From positions 1-64,000 of the forward strand of contig JAJUGU010000004.1 of the NCBI GenBank assembly GCA_029265815.1: a DNA stretch of 64,000 bases, in the 5' to 3' direction. Within the stretch, counting starts at the first letter, position 1. Each line of letters opens with the position of its first letter. Made by a program: the position numbers and the translations under genes. This document shows positions 47,734-58,082 of this stretch, piece after piece. The DNA is from Anaerolineaceae bacterium. Lineage in GTDB: Bacteria > Chloroflexota > Anaerolineae > Anaerolineales > Anaerolineaceae. The notes under the pieces were generated by a model. It had not been told where the DNA came from. It did no database searches and worked only from the letters and a program-made list of their open reading frames with translations.

Positions 47734-47906
47734 GGAAAACCTTGCATATCTCGACAATTGTGCACAATTCTCTCCATACCTAATTAAAAGTTTTAGCGTT
47801 GATTTTGCGTGTATCATACATAGGAATTGACATATCACGAGGAACCTGGGAGGCAGTCGTATCGTCTATGATGAAGGATCGTATTTCTTCCGCGAGGTCA
47901 GAGCGT

Positions 47907-48644
47907 ATGAAGCGAAAATTGATTGTCATGTACCTTCTGCCCGCCTGCGCCCTTCTGGCAGGCTGCGGCGTTTTCCAGAACGCTGCCCCAACAGCCACCG
48001 CAACCTACCCGCCGCCAGTCACCACCGAACCCGCCCCGCCAACCAACACCCCCCTGCCCAGCGCTACACCCATTCCGCCAACCCCCACCATTTACCAGCC
48101 CATCACAGGCAAGATTCTGTTCGATGACATGCGCCTGCGCCACGGGCCGGGGTTCCTGTTCGAAACCATCCAGGTATACCCGATCGACCAGACTATCGAA
48201 TTGCTGGGTTACGCGCCGGGCGGAAACTGGTATTTGGTGCGCACGGCGGACGGCCTCACCGGCTGGATGAAGAAAGAGGGCATCGACCTGGAAGGCAACA
48301 TGTACGACGCCCCCGAAGTTGCTTTCGATGATGCCGTAGTGGTGCACGGGCGCGTCTCTGCCCCCAATGGTTCGCCCGCTTCTGAGATCGGGGTCGCCAT
48401 CCAGCCCGAGGGAGACGATAATCCATCCAGGCAGGATGTAGGCGTTACAGATGTAATGGGCCGTTTTTACATTTACTTACCCCCGGGCACCAGCGGTAAC
48501 TGGATCCTTGCCGCCAGCTCCTACGGCTGCGCAGGCAGCAACGTAGACCGCACCTGCAGCCTGATCGGGCACTTCCCCGACGCGCAGGTGATCACGCTGC
48601 CCGAAGCAGCCAGCGCCCCCATTGAAATCAAGATCCTGCCGTGA
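47907..48644 (+). CDS. SH3-domain lipoprotein
   Basis: A 245-residue predicted lipoprotein. The signal peptide ends in lipobox LAGC (Cys20); a Thr/Pro-rich linker (about 28-65) follows; residues about 68-135 form a bacterial SH3 domain (MRLRHGPGFLFETIQVYP, then NWYLVRTADGLTGWMKKEGI); residues about 145-245 form a beta-sandwich like a carboxypeptidase-regulatory/Cna-B domain (GRVSAPNGSPASEIGVAI, VMGRFYIYLPPG). ATG 47907 is used because the signal peptide begins there. It is probably surface anchored and binds cell-wall or glycan components. A paralogue follows in tandem. Confidence 0.75.
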   Translation: MKRKLIVMYLLPACALLAGCGVFQNAAPTATATYPPPVTTEPAPPTNTPLPSATPIPPTPTIYQPITGKILFDDMRLRHGPGFLFETIQVYPIDQTIELLGYAPGGNWYLVRTADGLTGWMKKEGIDLEGNMYDAPEVAFDDAVVVHGRVSAPNGSPASEIGVAIQPEGDDNPSRQDVGVTDVMGRFYIYLPPGTSGNWILAASSYGCAGSNVDRTCSLIGHFPDAQVITLPEAASAPIEIKILP

Positions 48645-48736
48645 TCCCCGGGTTCTTCCGCTCTGACGCACGCGCCCGCTGTGATTTACCTGTAAAATTA
48701 ATGATCCAAACCATCCTCCATTGAATGCGAGAGGGT

Positions 48737-49486
48737 ATGAAAAAATCAATTATCCTTGTCGTCGTGATCATCATTCTAACGTTCACCGCTGCCTGCTCTG
48801 TGCGCGAAACGCCCGCCGCGCCGCCCACCGCCACTCTGCCGCTGCTGCCGACCGCCACTAAGGTGATCGCCACCGCCACCCCGCAGCCCACAGCAGCCCT
48901 GCCCACGCTGCAGCCCACCCTCACCGCCTCTCCCACCCCCAGGCCCGTGCTGCCCATCCCTGCCACAGTAACCTTTGACAACTTTATCCTCCGCGAGGGT
49001 CCGGGGCGGTTGTTCGACCGGGTGGACATGTACGATTCCGGCAGCCAGGTAACCGTTCTGGGAAGAGTGATGGGCGATAACTGGGTGCTGGTGCAGACTG
49101 CTGATCACTGCGCGGGATGGATGAACACCTCGGGGCTGGACCATCTGGGTAATTTTGATTCGCTGCCGCTCTATCACGCTCAGGGGGCGATCATGCTCAG
49201 TGGGCATGTCTGGAGCGCAAACCGGTCGCCGGTATCGGGCATCACCGTGGCCGTCTTCCCGGCGGGCAGCAGCGATAACAACCTGCGCGAAGACGTGACC
49301 ACCGGCGCCGACGGCACCTGGTACGCCTACCTGCCCGGCAACTCCAAAGGCGATTGGGAAGTGCAGGTCGTTTCATGCCCGGCGGCGATGGATCTGGAGA
49401 CCTGCCGTGAAACCCTGCCTGCGGGGCAGGTGGTTACTCTGCCCAACGCGTCAGAGGTCAGCATTGAAATGAGCTTCAGGCCGTGA
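48737..49486 (+). CDS. SH3-domain lipoprotein, tandem paralogue
   Basis: A 249-residue predicted lipoprotein with the same layout as its upstream neighbour: signal peptide with lipobox TAAC (Cys20), a longer Thr/Pro/Ala linker (PTATLPLLPTATK), SH3 domain (FILREGPGRLFDRVDMYD, then NWVLVQTADHCAGWMNTSGL) and a C-terminal beta-sandwich (GHVWSANRSPVSGITVAVFP, ADGTWYAYLPGNS). GAGAGGG precedes ATG 48737. The two genes are 92 bp apart and clearly arose by duplication, then diverged. Confidence 0.75.
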   Translation: MKKSIILVVVIIILTFTAACSVRETPAAPPTATLPLLPTATKVIATATPQPTAALPTLQPTLTASPTPRPVLPIPATVTFDNFILREGPGRLFDRVDMYDSGSQVTVLGRVMGDNWVLVQTADHCAGWMNTSGLDHLGNFDSLPLYHAQGAIMLSGHVWSANRSPVSGITVAVFPAGSSDNNLREDVTTGADGTWYAYLPGNSKGDWEVQVVSCPAAMDLETCRETLPAGQVVTLPNASEVSIEMSFRP

Positions 49487-50967: not shown

Positions 50968-50989
50968 ATTCTGAATTTTCGTGCATAAT
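50968..50989. repeat. Right 22-bp direct repeat of the DUF488 cassette
   Basis: Identical to 49550-49571. The bases beyond each copy differ, so the repeat ends are sharp. This copy lies 18 bp before the methyltransferase remnant's ATG and supplies the same TGCATAAT promoter-like end. Confidence 0.9.
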
Positions 50990-51007
50990 CAAGCGGGGAG
51001 CGATGAC

Positions 51008-51406
51008 ATGAACACACTTTACTACGGCGACAATCTCAACATCCTGCGTGAATACATTAAAGACGAGTCAGTGGACCTGATCTACCTCGACCCGCCTTTC
51101 AACAGCAACCGCTCGTACAACGTGCTTTTCAAAGACGAGAGCGGGCTGGCCTCCGACGCGCAGATCGGCATCTTCCTCACCCTCGAAGAGCCCAGCAAAG
51201 ACATGCTCAGCGAAGCCGCCAGCGCCGGTTTCTACCATTCCGCGCTGTGGCAGAAAGATTACCCGCGGGTGCAGATCGTCACCGTGGAAGAGCTGCTCAA
51301 CGGCGCTGAAGTGAAGGTGCCACCCACGCCCAAAGGGTTCGAGGCGTTCAAAAAAGCCGAGAAAGCCCAGAAGAAAGGCCCCAGGCAGGGCGAGCTGGGA
51401 ATATGA
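51008..51406 (+). pseudogene. DNA methyltransferase with large in-frame internal deletion
   Basis: A 132-residue reading frame. Residues 1-58 match the N-terminus of type III/beta-class site-specific DNA methyltransferases, including YYGDNLNILREYI and the catalytic DPPF motif (LIYLDPPFNSNRSYN). From about residue 59 (IGIFLTLEEPSKDMLSEAA) the sequence matches the far C-terminal part of the same family. The middle, including the FxGxG SAM-binding motif, is missing, yet the frame is kept. Full-length relatives are several hundred residues long. GGGGAG precedes ATG 51008. It cannot be an active methylase as it stands; it is a remnant or possibly an assembly deletion. Confidence 0.75.
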
Positions 51407-51422: not shown

Positions 51423-51538
51423 ATTATAGCGTTTTAAGACTATTATTTATTATTATAGCGTTTTTAGACTATTGTTTAGCATTATAGCGTTATCAGGCTA
51501 TAATTTGTCATTATAGCGTTTTTTTGCTATAATGTGCA
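51423..51538. repeat. Four 29-bp tandem repeats, each a dyad
   Basis: Units start at 51423, 51452, 51481 and 51510, exactly 29 bp apart. Each begins ATTATAGC, then an 8-base centre, then a right arm. In units 3 and 4 the right arm is a perfect GCTATAAT (8-8-8 dyad); in units 1 and 2 it is ACTATTAT and ACTATTGT. The gap to the next unit is 5 bp. No unique spacers occur, so it is not CRISPR. The array ends 18 bp before the SatD-family start codon, which marks it as a probable multi-site operator. Confidence 0.9.
51505..51533 (+). promoter_or_regulatory. Promoter inside the last repeat units, for the SatD-DUF3307 pair
   Basis: TTGTCA (51505-51510) and TATAAT (51528-51533) with a 17-bp spacer; the -10 is the right arm of dyad 4. 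The same geometry gives a weaker promoter one unit upstream (TTAGCA at 51476-51481, TATAAT at 51499-51504). A protein binding the dyads would control initiation directly. Confidence 0.7.
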
Positions 51539-51556
51539 GGAAAAGAGGATCTTCCG

Positions 51557-52240
51557 ATGAAAGATCAAATCCTGTCCTGCGCCGCCGTGCTCACCGGCGA
51601 CATTGTCAGGTCATCCAGCCTGCCCACCGATCGGCGCCTTGCGCTCTTTCAATCTTTGCAAGACCTCTCCGCCCTGCTCAAACACCAGTACCCTGACGCC
51701 GTGCGCTGCGACCTCGCTAAATTCCGCGGCGACGGCTGGCAGCTCGTCATCGACCGTCCGCAGAAATTCTTTGAAATCAGCCTCTATATCCGCACCTACA
51801 TCCGAATGCGGTTCAGTGAAGAGGAACTTGATACGCGCATCGCGGCCGCCGTTGGCAGCGTGGAATTCGTTCCTGAAGACAACGTCTCGGCCGGGTTCGG
51901 GCAGGCTTTCACCGAATCAGGTAAGAAACTGGATGAATTGAAGCAGTACCGCATGGGAATTTCCCTCGCCCTCGAAAACGCAGCCCGCTACGCGCGGTTG
52001 TTCGATGCCCTGCTCAAAAGCTACGATACGATCATCACGGCGTGGACGGCGCTCCAATCTCAGGCCGTGCACCTCGCTCTGCAGGGGTTGACACAGGCAG
52101 AAGTTGGCCGCCGGTGGCAGCCCCAGCCGATCGAGCAGGTCACGGTGAACCGGCACCTGAGCGCCGCAAAATGGGGGTTGATCAAAGAAGGGATAGAAAT
52201 ATTTGAATCAGAAACCACAAGGATCATTCAAGGGGGCTAA
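51557..52240 (+). CDS. SatD-family protein with C-terminal helix-turn-helix
   Basis: A 227-residue protein. The N-terminal 150 residues show the SatD pattern (AAVLTGDIVRSSSL, then AKFRGDGWQLVI and RIAAAVGSVEF), reminiscent of nucleotide-cyclase-like folds. The last 60 residues look like a DNA-binding HTH (LALQGLTQAEVGRRW, TVNRHLSAAKW). GAGG is 8 nt before ATG 51557. SatD is named from the Streptococcus mutans sat operon; its biochemical function is not known. With its HTH it is the obvious candidate to bind the four dyads upstream. The next gene follows after 2 bp. Confidence 0.78.
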   Translation: MKDQILSCAAVLTGDIVRSSSLPTDRRLALFQSLQDLSALLKHQYPDAVRCDLAKFRGDGWQLVIDRPQKFFEISLYIRTYIRMRFSEEELDTRIAAAVGSVEFVPEDNVSAGFGQAFTESGKKLDELKQYRMGISLALENAARYARLFDALLKSYDTIITAWTALQSQAVHLALQGLTQAEVGRRWQPQPIEQVTVNRHLSAAKWGLIKEGIEIFESETTRIIQGG

Positions 52241-52242
52241 AC

Positions 52243-52992
52243 ATGTCTTCCACAGCCATCCAACTGGGCATCGTCCTTCTCCTCGCGCACCTGGTAAGCG
52301 ATTTTCTCCTGCAGCCGCATGCGCTTTTGAAACACAAAAAGCGGGTATGCGGGCTGGCCATCCACAGCCTGATCAACGGAGCCGCCGCCTACCTGCTGCT
52401 GGCAAACTGGAGCGAATGGCTGGTGCCGGTGCTCATCGCTGCCAGCCATTTCTTGATCGATTTCGCCAAGCAGCGCCTGAGAAGGCACACGCAGGTCATC
52501 TTCGCTCTTGACCAGCTGCTGCATCTGACGGTGATCGCTCTGGTGATCGGGTACAGCCTGCTGCCGCGCGGCATCACTCCCGGCTGGTTCAGCATCCTGC
52601 CGCTCGGTGCGGATAAGGTTTTTGCATACGCTGCGGCGGTCATTCTGCTCATCCCGGCCGGCGGCATTGTGGTGGGGCTGCTCGTACAGCCGTTTCAACA
52701 GCAGATCAAAGACCACTACCTCAAAAAACAAAAAGAACCGGTGGAAGGACTGGAAAATGGCGGAAAGGTCATTGGCTGGCTCGAACGCGCGCTGATTGCG
52801 GTGTTCATCCTGGCCAACCAGTATGCGGGCATCGGCTTCTTGATCGCGGCGAAATCAATCTTCCGCTTTGGCGAATTCAAAGAAAGCGAGAACCGCAAAG
52901 AAGCGGAATACATCATCATCGGCACCTTCGCCAGTTTCCTTTACGCGATCCTGGTCAGTCTATCGTTGAAGTGGGTGCTGGGCAAATTATAG
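52243..52992 (+). CDS. DUF3307 membrane protein
   Basis: A 249-residue polytopic membrane protein with about six hydrophobic segments. The N-terminus LLLAHLVSDFLLQPHALLKHKKR and the following HSLINGAAAYLL are the DUF3307 signature; FLIDFAKQRL and FALDQLLHLTVIALVI supply its conserved Asp/His residues. It is translationally linked to the SatD-family gene (2 bp spacing). The pairing of a membrane protein with a potential intracellular sensor/regulator suggests a two-component-like unit, an inference. Confidence 0.8.
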   Translation: MSSTAIQLGIVLLLAHLVSDFLLQPHALLKHKKRVCGLAIHSLINGAAAYLLLANWSEWLVPVLIAASHFLIDFAKQRLRRHTQVIFALDQLLHLTVIALVIGYSLLPRGITPGWFSILPLGADKVFAYAAAVILLIPAGGIVVGLLVQPFQQQIKDHYLKKQKEPVEGLENGGKVIGWLERALIAVFILANQYAGIGFLIAAKSIFRFGEFKESENRKEAEYIIIGTFASFLYAILVSLSLKWVLGKL

Positions 52993-52999
52993 GGGATAG

Positions 53000-53019
53000 G
53001 GGCGTATGGCCATACGCCC
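53000..53019. repeat. REP-like palindrome upstream of the transposase
   Basis: GGGCGTATGGCCATACGCCC is a perfect 20-bp palindrome just after the DUF3307 stop and 40 bp before the transposase ATG. Its core differs from that of the palindrome at 53694-53721, but both carry the same GGGGC/GCCCC-type ends, which relates them. Confidence 0.85.
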
Positions 53020-53058
53020 AACGCTACCGGCCGGCCGCCCCAACAACCAGAGGGGAAA

Positions 53059-53697
53059 ATGAAAATTCATCACCGCCGTTCCATCCGATTGCCGGGATAC
53101 GATTACACCAGCGAGGGGGCGTATTTCGTCACCCTCGTCACGCACCGCCGTGAACGGTTGTTCGGCAAGATCGTTGATGACGAAATGGTGTTAAACGAAT
53201 TCGGAAAGATCGTTTATTTCACGTGGAATGACTTGCCAAATCACAATCCAGATATCGGATTGGACGAATTTATCATTATGCCAAATCATATTCATTTCAT
53301 CGTCTATTTGTTCAACCCCGCGCATACCGTAGGGGCAGGTTCACAACCTGCCCCCGTTGATCCAACGGTCAACGATATCCCGGCGGGTTTGGAACCCCGG
53401 GTGGATTTGGAATCCCGGGCGGGTTTGGAACCCGCCCCTACGAAAAAACGAACATCATTGTCGGAAATTGTTCGGCAATTCAAAACATTTTCTGCACGGT
53501 GCATCAACACATCGCGCGGAACCCCCGGCGCGCCGGTATGGCAGCGCAATGATTACGACCCCTCTCGCAAAGAACGCTCGGGGGTGCAAAAACCGCGACA
53601 CATCATTTCCACCGACCGCGAACACGAAACCATTGCGGCGTATATTGCCAATAATCCATCCAACTGGATAAACGACAACGAACGCAATCCATGGTAG
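53059..53697 (+). mobile_element. REP-associated tyrosine transposase (RAYT, IS200-like)
   Basis: A 212-residue Y1-type transposase. The HUH motif is in FIIMPNHIHFIVYL; SEIVRQFKTFSARCIN and HIISTDREHETIAAYIANNPSNW are the usual downstream blocks. Two in-frame insertions interrupt the standard fold: about 35 residues (about 92-127) encoded by palindromes and three 18-bp repeats (53329-53442), and about 14 residues between VWQRNDY and HIIST (around 53557-53598). AGGGG precedes ATG 53059. RAYTs mobilise or maintain REP palindromes; here the repeats sit inside and around the gene. Activity is doubtful with these insertions. Confidence 0.8.
53329..53442. repeat. Palindromes and 18-bp tandem repeats inside the transposase gene
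   Basis: GGGGCAGGTT (53332-53341) pairs with AACCTGCCCC (53345-53354). Three tandem units of 18 bp follow at 53382, 53400 and 53418, each of the form GGCGGGTTTGGAACCCCG with small changes, encoding GLEP/DLES/GLEP. GGGCGGGTT (53417-53425) pairs with AACCCGCCC (53429-53437), and the block ends in CCCCTACG. The GTAGGGG and CCCCTAC ends match the free-standing palindrome at 53694. Confidence 0.85.
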
Positions 53698-53721
53698 GGG
53701 CGAACGGCCGTTCGCCCCTAC
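53694..53721. repeat. Perfect 28-bp REP-like palindrome at the transposase stop
   Basis: The half-site is GTAGGGGCGAACGG (53694-53707), followed at once by its exact reverse complement. The transposase stop codon TAG (53695-53697) lies inside it, so element and gene end are joined. Confidence 0.9.
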
Positions 53722-53808
53722 GACGACGTCCTGAAAAATCGTTGGGCGCATGAAAATACGCTTGGTTGGAGTATGGCGCTCCGTGCCCCGGCGCGTCCAC
53801 CATCATCC

Positions 53809-53935: not shown

Positions 53936-54271
53936 ATGCCGCGAAAGAAAACACCAACGCCCGCCCTGCCTAAACCAACTCCACCTGCCGTCCCCGATAC
54001 CACCGAAGGACTGGACCGCGAGATCGCCATCCTGCGCGATCTGATCCGCAAAGCGGCCGCCAGGCAAACCGCCGACCTCAGCCTTGACGAGCAGCTTGAA
54101 CTGCTGGAAACGGTGGGTAAAACCGCCCCCGCCCTCGCCCGCCTGCTGAAAGCGCGCCGCGACCTGGCCAACGCCGAACTCGATCCCGCCGCCCTGCTGC
54201 GCCAGGCACTCATCGAACTCGAACAAGAATGGCCCGAATTAAAGAAGTTTGGAGAGCAATTTGTGAAATAG
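53936..54271 (+). CDS. Small phage-module protein, possible terminase small-subunit role
   Basis: A 111-residue, helical, charged protein: a Pro/Lys-rich N-terminal tail (KKTPTPALPKPTPPAV) and a long helix pair (DREIAILRDLIRKAAARQ, EQLELLETVGKTAPALARLLKARRDL). AAAGGAGGAAC before ATG 53936 is the best ribosome site in the module. It is first in the module and directly precedes the large terminase, where the small terminase subunit is usually encoded; no HTH signature confirms that. Confidence 0.5.
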   Translation: MPRKKTPTPALPKPTPPAVPDTTEGLDREIAILRDLIRKAAARQTADLSLDEQLELLETVGKTAPALARLLKARRDLANAELDPAALLRQALIELEQEWPELKKFGEQFVK

Positions 54272-54369
54272 AGACCGCGAACCAGATTGTAGAGAACAGA
54301 GAAAAAGCTGAAAGCAGACTGCCGAAGAACATCATGAATCCCTTTTCATGCTCTCATCTCCGAGGAACC

Positions 54370-55899
54370 ATGACCCAATTCATCCCACACTACAAATGGC
54401 TTCTGAGCGACCCTGAACGCTTTGCAAAGAACGCCTCAGGGATCACCCTGCGCAAATATCAGCGCGGGGTGCTCGCTGCCATCTTCGATTCAGTGCTCAA
54501 CCAGCGTGGGTTGTGCTTCGTGGTCATCTTTCCGCGCCAGAGCGGCAAGAACGAACTGCAGGCGCAGCTCGAAACCTACCTGCTCACCCTCTTTTCAAGA
54601 TACCCGGTCGAGATGGTGAAAGTCTCGCCAACCCTCAAGCCGCAGGCGCTCAACGCCATGCGCCGCCTCGAACGCACGGTCAAGAAGAACACGCTCACCC
54701 GGCGTATATGGGTCAAAGAATCTGGTTCGATCTACCGTGTGGGAGAAGCGCGCATCACCTTCCTTTCTGCCGCGCCTGAAAGCAGCATCGTCGGCGCCAC
54801 CGCTTCTGCACTGCTTGAAGTAGACGAAGCGCAGGATGTGTTAAGCCTCAAGTACGAAAAGGACGTGGCACCGATGGGCGCTTCAACCAACGCCACGCGC
54901 GTCTTCTGGGGTACCTCGTGGACCAGCCAGACGCTGCTGGCGCAGCAAATGCGGTGCGCGCTGGAAGAAGAAAAGCGCGACGGCGTCCGGCGCGTCTTCC
55001 GCCTCACCGCTGATGACGTGGCCGCCGAGATCACCGCCTATCGCAGGCACGTGGAAGAAACCATCCAGCGCCTGGGTCGCGATCACCCGACCGTGCGCAC
55101 GCAATACTTTTCCGAAGAGATCGATGGTGAAGGCGGTTTGTTCCCACCGCGCCGGTTGGAGCGCATGCGCAGCGGTGAACCCGCACCGCATGGCCCGCAG
55201 GAGGGCAGGCTTTACGCCCTGCTGCTGGATGTGGCGGGTGAAGACGAAGGTGTGCGCGGCATCGAAGGTGCGCTCTCTCCTTCCAACCCGCTGCGCGACG
55301 CGAACGCGCTCACTATTGTGGAAATAAAAATCTCCGACGCCAGTCACCACCTGCCGGTCTACACCGCCGTCTGGCGCGCGCAGTGGAAAGGAGTCAGTCA
55401 CACGCAGCTGCACCATGAAGTGCGCGATATTGCGCTGGCGTGGAACGCGCGCGCCGTGGTGGTGGATGCCACCGGGGTTGGAGCCGGGCTGGCTTCCTTC
55501 CTCGACCGTTCACTTCCTGGGCGCGTGACGCCCTTCACCTTCAACACCGCTTCCAAATCCAACCTGGGCTGGGATTTCGTGGGTATCGTCGATTCCGGCC
55601 GCTGGCGTGAACCGCTGTTCGACCCCGAACGCCAGCCGCAGCAGGCTTTCATGCAGCAGGAATTCTTCGCCCAGCTGCGCGCCTGCCAGTTCCAGGTGAA
55701 TGAAGGCCCCGAGCGGCGCATGAAATGGGGAGTGCCCGAAACCGCACGCAGCCCCGAAAATGGCGAGCTGCTGCACGATGATTGGATCCTCTCCGCCGCG
55801 CTGAGCGCTGTTTTAGAAAAAGTCGACTGGCACACCACCGCCCCGGCACTGATCGTGCCCGCACCCGACCCGCTGCAGGGCATGGAGGGAAAGTTCTAA
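54370..55899 (+). CDS. Phage terminase large subunit
   Basis: A 509-residue DNA-packaging motor. Walker A-like FPRQSGKNE (residues 54-62), Walker B ALLEVDEAQD with the catalytic Glu (148-156), and motif III GTSWT. The C-terminal RNase H-like nuclease has YALLLDVAG and VVVDATGVGAGLASFLDR. ATG 54370 with GAGGA upstream is used; the in-frame extension back to 54229 overlaps the preceding gene and lacks family-like sequence. It would cut and pump DNA into the capsid through the portal encoded two genes downstream. Confidence 0.87.
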   Translation: MTQFIPHYKWLLSDPERFAKNASGITLRKYQRGVLAAIFDSVLNQRGLCFVVIFPRQSGKNELQAQLETYLLTLFSRYPVEMVKVSPTLKPQALNAMRRLERTVKKNTLTRRIWVKESGSIYRVGEARITFLSAAPESSIVGATASALLEVDEAQDVLSLKYEKDVAPMGASTNATRVFWGTSWTSQTLLAQQMRCALEEEKRDGVRRVFRLTADDVAAEITAYRRHVEETIQRLGRDHPTVRTQYFSEEIDGEGGLFPPRRLERMRSGEPAPHGPQEGRLYALLLDVAGEDEGVRGIEGALSPSNPLRDANALTIVEIKISDASHHLPVYTAVWRAQWKGVSHTQLHHEVRDIALAWNARAVVVDATGVGAGLASFLDRSLPGRVTPFTFNTASKSNLGWDFVGIVDSGRWREPLFDPERQPQQAFMQQEFFAQLRACQFQVNEGPERRMKWGVPETARSPENGELLHDDWILSAALSAVLEKVDWHTTAPALIVPAPDPLQGMEGKF

Positions 55900-56025
55900 C
55901 GAAAAGAAGTGAATATCAGCGAATGGTGATTGGAGATCAAAGAAAGAACATGAATTTCACACCGCCCATCTTCACTGACTTCAGATCACCACTCTCGATT
56001 TACCCAACACGAAAGGAAATGCATT

Positions 56026-56673
56026 ATGTTATTTGGCATCGACGTCAGCTACCATCAAGGATTGATCGACTGGCCCAGAGTGAGAACCAGCGGCGTGCGC
56101 TTTGCGATCATCAAAGCCAGCGAAGGGGAAGGATACACCGACCCGATGTTCGAGCAGAACATGCTCGGCGCGGCAGAAGCTGAAATCGTCGCCGGCACGT
56201 ATCACTTCTTCCTGCCCAGGTATGACCCGCTTGCGCAGGCACGCCACTACGTCAAGACACTGCAGGAACTGGGCGGCGGCAAGCCCACCCTGCCCCCCTG
56301 CGTGGATATCGAAACGCCGGGGCCGGGCAAATCCGCGTACAACCAGTCATTGAAAGTGTTCCTCGAAGAAATCTTCAGGCTCACCGGCCGCACGGCCATG
56401 ATCTACGTCTCGCCCGGCTTCTGGAACAGCTACCTGCCAGTTCCGGTCTATTCCGGCTACAAACTGCAGCGTTCAGGGGTCGATTGGGCGGCGGAATATC
56501 CGCTGTGGGTGGCGCATTACACCACGGGCTGGCCACACCAGGTGTACCCCTGGGCGGGCTGGGCATTCTGGCAATACTCCAGTTCGGGAAAGATCGCGGG
56601 CATTACCACCCGCGTGGATCTTAACCTGTTCAGCGGCACAGCGCAAGAATTGGCCGCGCTGGTGGAATCATGA
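56026..56673 (+). CDS. GH25-family lysozyme (muramidase)
   Basis: A 215-residue single-domain glycoside hydrolase 25: GIDVSYHQGLIDWPRV at the start, FAIIKASEGEGY, GTYHFF, CVDIETPG (catalytic acidic pair D-x-E), IYVSPGFW and the C-terminal WQYSSSGKIAGITTRVDLN. It cleaves peptidoglycan. It has no signal peptide, so release would need the holin-like peptide. It is unusual to find the endolysin gene between terminase and portal. AAAGGAAATGCATT precedes ATG 56026; the 126-bp gap before it shows no other gene. Confidence 0.88.
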   Translation: MLFGIDVSYHQGLIDWPRVRTSGVRFAIIKASEGEGYTDPMFEQNMLGAAEAEIVAGTYHFFLPRYDPLAQARHYVKTLQELGGGKPTLPPCVDIETPGPGKSAYNQSLKVFLEEIFRLTGRTAMIYVSPGFWNSYLPVPVYSGYKLQRSGVDWAAEYPLWVAHYTTGWPHQVYPWAGWAFWQYSSSGKIAGITTRVDLNLFSGTAQELAALVES

Positions 56674-58082
56674 GCAGCATCGGAACGCGTCTGTTCGATC
56701 GCATCTTCCAGCGTCGCATCCGTGAAGGCGTGCGCGCTGCACTGACAGCCTACACTGAAACCGATGCCACCTTCGCCATTGGCAGCCGCCCGGGTGAAGC
56801 CCCCTTTGACCGCTGCGCCCCTGACCGCAGCGAGATCCTGCGTCAGGCGCTGGAAGCCTGGCGCGTCAACCCTCTCGCCCGGCGCATCGTGGGTCTGACC
56901 TCGCAGTACGTGGTCGGCGGGGGTATTAACTACTCATGTCCGCACGCGCCCACAGCTGCCTTTCTGCGCGCTTTCTGGGAGCACCCCCTCAACCGCATGG
57001 CGGTGCGCGTCTATGAATGGTGTGATGAGCTCACACGCAGCGGCAACCTCTTTCTGTTGCTCTCCACCGATGCCGCCGGCATGAGTTACCTGCGGCCGGT
57101 GCCTTCAGCGCAGGTCAAAACCATCCACTCGCGCACCAATGATCTCGACCAGGAACTCGCGTACGAAATGTACCCCGACCTGGATTGCACCTGTGATCCG
57201 CCAACCTGGCCGGCATACGATGCGTGTAAAGATGACCTCACAGACGGTTCATTTCCCACCGTCATGCTGCACTACGCCGTCAACCGTCCAGTTGGTGCGC
57301 AGTGGGGTGAATCTGACCTGGCCCCGGTGCTGCGCTGGTTGAGCCGTTATGCCGCCTGGCTGGAAGACCGCGCCCGGCTCAACCGTTTTAGAACCGCCTT
57401 TCTCTACATCGTGCGCGCGCGTTTCACCAGCGAGGCAGAACGCCGCGCGCGCCAGTCTGCGCTGAACGCTGCCCCGCCTTCTCCGGGGTCAATTCTGGTG
57501 GCTGACGAGAGCGAGACCTGGGAAGCCCTGCATCCACGCCTTGAATCCGACGACGCCGGAGAAGACGGTCTGGCTCTAAAGAAAATGCTGGCCGCAGGAG
57601 CGGGCATTCCCATGCACTTTTTGGCTGAGCCTGAAGGCTCCACGCGCACCACGGCTGAGGCCGCCGGAGGCCCCACCTACCGCCATTTCGAACAGCGCCA
57701 GCGCTTCTTTTTGTGGATGCTGGGTGATGTCTTGCGGGCGGTGGTGAACAGACGCGCCAGGGTAGATTGCCGCGTCTCACGCCGGGCAGAAATCACCCTG
57801 CACGGCGCAGACATCTCTGCGCGCGACAACGTCTCGCTGGCCATGGCTGCCAGCAACATCGCTTCGGTGGTACGCGACGCGCGCGACCGCGGTCTGATCG
57901 ACGACGCTGAATATCTGCGCCTGCTCTATCGGTTTTGCGGCGAGAGCGTAAACATCGAAGAAATGCTGGAACGCGGTAGAGCCGCCGGAACCCGCAAACC
58001 TGCCCCCCGCGGTAGAGTCATGCCGCAGCCGGTCAAGATTGACCTTGAAACCGGAGAGGAAAAAGGAGGAGCACTTGAATAA
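56670..58082 (+). CDS. Phage portal protein
   Basis: A 470-residue protein with the portal pattern: a DRSEILRQALEAWRVNPLARRIVGLTSQYVVGGG start, the RVYEWCDELTRSGNLFLLLSTD strand region, VMLHYAVNRPVGAQWGESDLAPVLRWL and the C-terminal helices with SARDNVSLAMAASNIASVVRDARDRGLIDD. It would form the dodecameric DNA channel at the capsid vertex. It overlaps the lysozyme stop by 4 bp and the capsid gene start by 8 bp. Confidence 0.8.
   Translation: MSSIGTRLFDRIFQRRIREGVRAALTAYTETDATFAIGSRPGEAPFDRCAPDRSEILRQALEAWRVNPLARRIVGLTSQYVVGGGINYSCPHAPTAAFLRAFWEHPLNRMAVRVYEWCDELTRSGNLFLLLSTDAAGMSYLRPVPSAQVKTIHSRTNDLDQELAYEMYPDLDCTCDPPTWPAYDACKDDLTDGSFPTVMLHYAVNRPVGAQWGESDLAPVLRWLSRYAAWLEDRARLNRFRTAFLYIVRARFTSEAERRARQSALNAAPPSPGSILVADESETWEALHPRLESDDAGEDGLALKKMLAAGAGIPMHFLAEPEGSTRTTAEAAGGPTYRHFEQRQRFFLWMLGDVLRAVVNRRARVDCRVSRRAEITLHGADISARDNVSLAMAASNIASVVRDARDRGLIDDAEYLRLLYRFCGESVNIEEMLERGRAAGTRKPAPRGRVMPQPVKIDLETGEEKGGALE

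Follow-up and report, generated by a model that had tools for sequence, protein, structure and literature searches.

In the window, the 64,000-nucleotide stretch of Anaerolineaceae bacterium DNA that was analysed (GCA_029265815.1, contig JAJUGU010000004.1, positions 1 to 64,000 of the forward strand), a tandem array of inverted repeats stands upstream of two adjoining genes, which encode a SatD-like protein with a C-terminal helix-turn-helix (HTH) and a membrane protein of the DUF3307 family. The locus raises the question of which protein reads the array and what the two genes do together. The answer that we consider likely is a two-gene self-regulated operon, in which dimers of the SatD-like protein on the dyad array would control their own gene and the DUF3307 gene, with a link to nucleotides through the N-terminal palm domain. 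The features concerned are as follows.

51423–51451, + strand: putative operator unit 1 (29 bp); dyad at 51423–51446, 2 mismatches
51452–51480, + strand: putative operator unit 2 (29 bp); dyad at 51452–51475, 3 mismatches
51481–51509, + strand: putative operator unit 3 (29 bp); perfect dyad at 51481–51504
51510–51538, + strand: putative operator unit 4 (29 bp); perfect dyad at 51510–51533
51476–51504, + strand: sigma-70-like promoter TTAGCA-17-TATAAT, by consensus match only; -10 box formed by the right arm of dyad 3
51505–51533, + strand: sigma-70-like promoter TTGTCA-17-TATAAT, by consensus match only; -10 box formed by the right arm of dyad 4
51557–52240, + strand: SatD-like protein, 227 amino acids, with a palm (nucleotide-cyclase-like) domain and a C-terminal HTH (open reading frame (ORF), Pfam, predicted structure)
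51557–51982, + strand: palm domain, residues 1–142, with metal-type aspartates D15 and D59 (RGDxxQ motif)
52043–52174, + strand: HTH region, residues 163–206; recognition helix at about 192–203, with the strongest covariation with the half-site at residue 195
52243–52992, + strand: DUF3307 membrane protein, 249 amino acids, long form with conserved C-terminal AAKSxxRF and EYxxIGT motifs (ORF, Pfam)

The dyad array and its promoters

The four units span 51423–51538, with a direct-repeat spacing of exactly 29 and 29 bp from 51423. Tandem Repeats Finder places the repeat at 51423–51522 with a period of 29, 3.4 copies and a score of 137, the highest of its seven rows for the 64-kb window. The dyad in each unit is the inverted repeat ATTATAGC-N8-GCTATAAT. 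A first-pass annotation of the window had described four 29-bp dyad units running up to the start codon, the last two of them perfect; the units and the two perfect dyads stand, while the array itself ends 18 bp short of the ATG at 51557. Across the whole 2.58-Mb genome, units 3 and 4 are the only exact copies of the dyad. With up to three mismatches allowed there are 19 genome sites against 13 for a backwards control, four of the 19 being the array itself, and outside the array one site has two mismatches (C13:34833). The best dyads of the genome are those at the array. A regulator reading the array would look dedicated to the SatD-like/DUF3307 operon.

The right arms of the last two dyads double as -10 boxes with -35 boxes at 17 bp, as had been claimed. 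The downstream promoter-like site matches the consensus at 11 of 12 positions and has an extended -10, and the upstream one matches at 10 of 12. The two strands of the array region together hold four promoter-like sites, compared with 0.9 ± 0.9 in shuffled sequence. The proposal that the array is both operator and tandem promoter is borne out for the overlap, and the operator role is probable.

Distribution of the gene pair

As the sole query, the window SatD-like protein matched only itself among 301 Chloroflexota genomes, and had no match in genome contigs (where even the 48%-identical relative at locus L053 was overlooked), viral contigs or phages. The family was opened by a plasmid search with the SatD-like protein, which returned 14 records at 26–37% identity, and then by a DUF3307 profile. 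Among six plasmid records examined, an annotated DUF3307 gene adjoins in five, and in the unannotated sixth a DUF3307 ORF follows as judged by hidden Markov model. The profile of the long DUF3307 form has at least 588 matches in the species-genome collection, and the best 80 of these were used. A SatD-like ORF lies upstream of DUF3307 in all 80 of these best loci, a figure that is conditional on the long form because the profile was built from pairs, and in seven of eight viral-contig loci. Start codons were guessed as the nearest start before a conserved motif. Rows L069, L121 and L056, whose SatD-like frame is cut at a contig edge, and L005, which is the window, were left out; L123 is without a SatD-like gene and L082 was added by hand.

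Many bacteria and some archaea have the SatD-like/DUF3307 two-gene unit. It is found on two haloarchaeal plasmids, with the first gene annotated as "SatD family protein" and followed by DUF3307. Among the 301 Chloroflexota genomes, DUF3307 occurs in 29, five of which, the window included, have an adjoining SatD-like gene with both strands read. The DUF3307 of the pair is single-copy in all three groups that were counted. In the genus of a Chryseobacterium locus (L091) all 118 genomes match, 115 at full length and three as fragments; in the family of a Cellulophaga locus (L109) it is found in 92 of 149 genomes, and in that of a Rhodobacter locus (L107) in 27 of 149. The pair is near-universal in the Chryseobacterium genus group and patchy elsewhere. 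E. coli and Klebsiella plasmids of 3.77 and 4.4 kb (L038, L132) also carry it, with imperfect AACC...GGTT dyads upstream as read by eye.

The coupling to a membrane protein noted earlier is confirmed. In the window the DUF3307 ORF begins 2 bp past the SatD-like ORF and is a clear match to PF11750 (69.3 bits, cut-off 23). Across the loci the median gap between the SatD-like gene and the first ATG of the DUF3307 frame is 2 bp, and it is no more than 60 bp in 69 of 89. Both C-terminal motifs are found in 95 of 96 DUF3307 ORFs that accompany a SatD gene and in one of 15 that do not, these 15 being plus-strand reads. The structural model of DUF3307 is all-helical with a predicted local distance difference test score (pLDDT) of 92.7. 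Sequence searches for a solved relative gave a lone match at an expectation value (E) of 0.75, and Foldseek gave no structural match (best E 1.7); a second structure comparison reached Z 5.7 at best, with helical bundles. Kinship to the membrane protein YdjM was considered and is unsupported (hhalign probability 0.2, from one sequence). Short DUF3307 proteins, with open frames of 107–173 amino acids and no SatD-like gene, are found at L014–L032, mostly in Chloroflexota family f28.

Arrays upstream of other pairs

If the array belongs to the pair, dyads of the same spacing should stand upstream of other pairs, as the first-pass annotation had suggested checking. This is largely the case, and the original observation extends beyond the window. 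A 40-bp autocorrelation at lags 16–60 was applied to the 92 loci with enough upstream DNA (L041 was excluded for its short upstream region), and a locus passed when it exceeded all 20 of its dinucleotide shuffles, which allows about 5% of passes by chance. Upstream tandem repeats pass in 62 loci, with a best lag of 28 in 25, of 29 in 30 and of another value in seven, and the autocorrelation averaged over loci shows a clear excess at 28, 29, 56 and 58. The controls are at about the chance level and their lags are scattered: seven of 91 pass in the 200 bp downstream of DUF3307, and 14 of 272 in regions upstream of neighbouring genes. A three-dyad score, with only periods of 28 and 29 allowed, exceeds every one of 186 mononucleotide shuffles in 59 of 93 loci.

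The same pitch recurs in loci that were new to the analysis. Twenty of 26 further matches from the Rhodobacter family were used, and 12 pass the lag test, 11 at lags of 28–30 and one at 56. A scan for strong dyads in 20 weaker or more distant loci, which has no shuffle control, found at least two dyads 28–29 bp apart in five: Vibrio lentus (28, 28), near-identical Haloplanus and Halorientalis plasmids (29), Tsukamurella (29) and L106 (28). In the Chryseobacterium group, the consensus of 30 species (the best-scoring of 118) conserves three dyads at 29 bp. The frequency of the major base there is 0.95 in the arms, 0.81 in the spacers and 0.87 in the linkers, against 0.44–0.46 in DNA further upstream; a single species may have a worn unit, as in L161.

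Recognition of the array

The arms of the dyads vary by locus (TATAAGC, TATCG, CAACC, TATAACC, GCAAG, GTTCG and others), and this variation can be compared with that of the candidate regulator. The comparison covers 48 of the 59 array loci, after ten with whole-base centres and L034, which is outside the alignment, were dropped. Half-site similarity is correlated with identity in the recognition helix when the palm is partialled out (partial r 0.43, 0 of 999 permutations), and is not correlated with palm identity when the HTH is partialled out (-0.02, 560 of 999 permutations). Where palm identity is below 32% (484 pairs), the correlation stands at r 0.41 for the helix and -0.14 for the palm. 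Of 190 protein columns, residue 195 covaries most strongly (z 12.9), and residues 196 and 199 come fifth and sixth. The arms thus covary with the recognition helix and, after correction for the HTH, not with the palm. This is good evidence that the HTH reads the array of its own gene, and binding by the SatD-like protein is very likely.

The near-constant pitch bears on how it would bind. TAnnTTTG is the Bacteroidota -7 consensus, and 34 of 49 arrays have such a box no further than 110 bp from the start codon. It starts in the right arm in 16 arrays (offsets +6.5 and +8.5 from the dyad centre), within half a base of the centre position in nine, mostly one unit past the array, near -11 in six and elsewhere in three. 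The phase at which the arrays touch the promoter thus varies. Since the pitch is almost the same over differing promoters, packing of proteins is favoured as its cause. A period set by the promoter, which in the window would be 29 = 6 + 17 + 6 bp, was considered as the general cause and is disfavoured because a similar pitch is found in 28-bp arrays, in the GC-rich arrays of the Rhodobacter family and in pairs of haloarchaeal dyads. At 10.5 bp per turn, 28–29 bp correspond to 2.7–2.8 turns, which would place neighbouring dimers in a spiral about the helix instead of on one common face.

Family, fold and active site of the SatD-like protein

The window protein scores 16.1 bits (E 0.0087) against PF16264 (SatD), under the curated cut-off of 29 bits, and is therefore termed SatD-like here. 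PF16264 is matched at E ≤ 0.1 by 61 of the 85 aligned proteins, the window protein included, with a best value of 2.8e-13, so that through their relatives the SatD-like proteins are judged homologous to the SatD family. The HTH resembles sigma-70 region 4, a family matched by 34 of the 85. The earlier description as a SatD-family protein with a C-terminal HTH holds for the HTH; membership of SatD fails at the Pfam cut-off and is recovered through the relatives. No NCBIfam profile matched near any cut-off, and PF16264 had no match in the organism's own genome or in 14 controls.

The earlier interpretation is partly supported, and what it missed is the palm or cyclase fold. An AlphaFold2 model on the 85-protein alignment (pLDDT 95.9) predicts that the N-terminal domain has the palm fold of class III nucleotide cyclases. 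Its best Foldseek match is 7r65, a bacterial cyclic UMP (cUMP) synthase (E 1.2e-5), and VIA structure comparison gives Z 10–11 with class III cyclases, mostly over 140–150 aligned residues at a root-mean-square deviation of 2.8–4.0 Å. GTP cyclohydrolase III and GGDEF domains reach Z values similar to those of the cyclases. By predicted structure the palm is a relative of cyclases and GGDEF domains, and presumably also of the CRISPR-type palms. By sequence, the best PDB profile match is the cyclase Ma1120 (E 3e-4). D15 is kept in 84 of the 85 aligned proteins (the other has a gap) and D59 in all 85; in the Ma1120 alignment they fall on the DIxxS and GDG motifs, whose aspartates we take to bind metal. 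A metal and nucleotide site in the palm is therefore likely, as judged from conservation.

The class III cyclase motif also has an Asn and an Arg that act on the transition state. The Ma1120 profile alignment stops short of this part, and these positions were placed against the motif by eye only: the Asn position (119) is variable, mostly Q, R, V or I, with Asn outside the six commonest residues, and at the Arg position (123) 40 of the 85 have R, the window protein having K. The canonical class III active site is probably absent from the SatD-like palm.

Proposed mechanism and alternative explanations

The self-regulated operon combines computed features, namely the pair, the array, its spacing, the covariation of helix and operator and the predicted fold, with steps that we infer: direct binding, dimerisation, packing, repression, nucleotide sensing and the role of DUF3307 as effector. 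A SatD-like dimer would bind each dyad of the array upstream of its own gene. The filled array would cover the promoter, so that the operon, DUF3307 included, would be controlled and most likely repressed. The pitch of 28–29 bp would be set by the packing of neighbouring SatD-like dimers, not by the geometry of the promoter. For the palm, a nucleotide and metal are the most likely ligands, and their binding would alter DNA binding or the filling of the array, and DUF3307 would be the output of this nucleotide-linked signal. A broader proposal is offered tentatively, as possible though on balance not probable: that the pair is a one-component module common to bacteria and archaea, neither Pycsar nor toxin-antitoxin, in which the palm senses or makes a nucleotide, sets the extent to which SatD-like dimers stack at the 28–29 bp pitch, in a helical and not a one-faced arrangement, and converts nucleotide state into a stepwise DUF3307 output.

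The first-pass view of a self-contained system agrees with the neighbourhoods. No Pfam family occurs more than three times in 110 thinned neighbours, and no shared extra partner was found among 316 neighbour ORFs, whose largest clusters have eight members from related Flavobacteriaceae loci. The Pfam and PADLOC scans of neighbours covered 110 of 153 candidate ORFs from heuristic gene calls, after repeats from related loci and short ORFs were left out.

Several observations weigh against the self-regulated operon as a general account. The lag test finds no repeat signal in 30 of 92 loci, among them both Anaerolineales relatives nearest the window (L048 and L053), and delta-proteobacterial, acidobacterial and verrucomicrobial loci show it in 0 of 10. 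Only five of the 20 weaker or distant loci have two strong dyads 28–29 bp apart, and in the haloarchaeal ones the next strong dyad is 47 bp away and the array is not uniform. The loci are mostly Bacteroidota and related, and the counts and permutations are not independent events. In the covariation, columns 146, 125 and 208 rank second to fourth, and the mean z is 2.68 for the palm against 4.22 for the recognition helix (p 0.049), with ancestry lifting many columns. The TAnnTTTG boxes stand at three phases relative to the arrays and not at one. The Foldseek TM-scores (template modelling) for the palm are modest, about 0.4–0.47 of the query and about 0.42 for 7r65. Some array-less loci may be transcribed from elsewhere, since a co-directional upstream gene lies within 60 bp at seven of 26 of them and at three of 56 array loci by the three-dyad criterion. 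L053 has one strong window-like dyad, TTATAGC...GGCTATAA, and no passing array. Separately, in four Bacteroidota-type loci (L071, L087, L094, L118) the pair follows immediately after an ABC-type ATPase gene, these forming one four-member cluster, and shows no array signal; a Salinivibrio pair has an annotated ABC-F gene upstream.

Other explanations concern either the reader of the array or the purpose of the pair. The array could be bound by a different regulator, or could be a generic AT-rich tandem promoter with no dedicated protein, which we consider quite improbable. Promoter hexamers lie inside the arms, so that part of the similarity is built in, and ancestry alone makes many protein columns covary; however, the arms change in step with the SatD-like recognition helix, GC-richer arms such as GCAAG and GTTCG occur elsewhere at a similar pitch, and neighbouring promoters are without the repeat. 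That the dyads are RNA hairpins for leader attenuation rather than DNA operators is scarcely credible. Transcription from the upstream promoter-like site would include unit 4, which could fold, but the -10 box of the best promoter-like site falls within the last dyad, so a transcript from that site would leave out the array, and the fixed pitch and the helix covariation fit DNA binding.

As to purpose, the pair may be a toxin-antitoxin-like or guard pair, in which free DUF3307 would be a putative membrane toxin and the SatD-like protein would repress the operon and neutralise DUF3307. The order of regulator gene and then membrane gene at a median gap of 2 bp, an operator with multiple dyads over the promoter in a HipBA-like layout, and carriage on small plasmids all agree with this, and the reported essentiality of satD in Streptococcus pyogenes (PMC11323703) is a lead only. 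We are doubtful of it, given that near-universal single-copy presence in a genus is unusual for an addiction module and that many residues are invariant in both DUF3307 and the palm. A Pycsar-like immune module, in which the palm would respond to a trigger by making a cyclic or linear nucleotide, DUF3307 would be a membrane effector opened by it and the array would merely autoregulate, would accommodate the cUMP synthase match, the kept metal-type aspartates, a Sphingomonas plasmid where the pair adjoins genes annotated as Pycsar effector and cyclase, and a 3.77-kb plasmid whose only annotated genes besides the pair are Rop, MobA and a 51-amino-acid ORF. We hold it to be unlikely: the catalytic Asn position is variable in the by-eye alignment and the Arg is found in 40 of 85; PADLOC has no match for the window pair (E ≤ 1) or a Segatella pair and matches an E. 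coli plasmid protein in the HTH region only; no PADLOC family occurs in more than three of the 110 neighbours (86 families match at least one, as raw counts with no background rate); and single-copy presence, at full length in 115 of 118 genomes of one genus and in 92 of 149 of one family, is unlike that of patchy defence genes.

Relation to known systems

The self-regulated operon has partial counterparts among known systems. HipB binds several operators of the form TATCC-N8-GGATA at hipBA. The hipBA modules resemble the pair in having a small HTH regulator first and a partner second, with several inverted repeats over the promoter, and the window spacer is also 8 bp; they differ in that the partner in the window is a membrane protein and not a kinase, the SatD-like regulator has a cyclase-like palm, and the 28–29 bp pitch recurs in several phyla. 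Pycsar (PycC cyclase with a membrane or TIR effector) likewise places a cyclase-fold protein beside a membrane protein, and 7r65 is the top Foldseek match, whereas the SatD-like pair has a C-terminal HTH and an operator array, apparently does not retain the catalytic residues beyond the aspartates, lacks a PADLOC match and is near-core in some genera. Certain actinobacterial regulators join a cyclase-homology domain to a LuxR-type HTH. They share both domains in one protein with the SatD-like protein, whose HTH instead resembles sigma-70 region 4 and whose partner is DUF3307.

Closest in family is streptococcal SatD, through the PF16264 matches of relatives and the annotation of the haloarchaeal members. 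The window protein itself differs in falling under the cut-off, and neither an operator array nor a palm fold is described for SatD in the literature searched. According to one report, satD is the only accessory gene of S. pyogenes in the highest quarter of essentiality and is present in 178 of 249 genomes (PMC11323703). In the open-access literature searched, DUF3307 is named in a single paper, in a phage gene table; "SatD family" appears in a single annotation paper and satD otherwise only in a few streptococcal lists. No description of the array or palm fold of the SatD-like pair was found in this literature, which mostly excludes subscription journals. The earlier statement that the pair has no described function is upheld in that no established function was found there, and is qualified by the naming of the SatD family after the streptococcal sat genes and by the essentiality reported in that S. 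pyogenes study.

The pair is near-universal in a genus group, common in a family and carried on archaeal and tiny bacterial plasmids, yet has no established function in the literature searched. The array points to its regulator, and supplies a candidate DNA code (half-site versus residues 195, 196 and 199) and a ready reporter, while the palm fold suggests nucleotides and metal as inputs. Should satD of S. pyogenes stand at the head of such a pair, the operon model would offer a reason for the essential score of an accessory gene.

Neighbouring genes in the window

The ORF just upstream of the array (50981–51406) has weak, below-cut-off matches to the DNA-methyltransferase families Cons_hypoth95 and D12 in its first 60 residues only, and is perhaps a remnant of a methyltransferase. 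Directly past DUF3307, an ORF at 52995–53725 resembles a Y1-type transposase (PF01797, below cut-off) and is flanked by GC-rich palindromes (GGGCGTATGGCCATACGCCC; GTAGGGGCGAACGGCCGTTCGCCCCTAC, by eye), and it looks like a REP/RAYT element (repetitive extragenic palindrome with its associated tyrosine transposase). Further on, 54229–58082 is prophage-like, with a Terminase_6C match just below cut-off (54229–55899), a clear GH25 lysozyme (56026–56673) and an unmatched ORF of 470 amino acids, which by its position we guess to be a portal gene. At 47799–49486, two adjacent ORFs that read similarly have weak, below-cut-off SH3_3 matches and may represent a lipoprotein gene duplicated in tandem.

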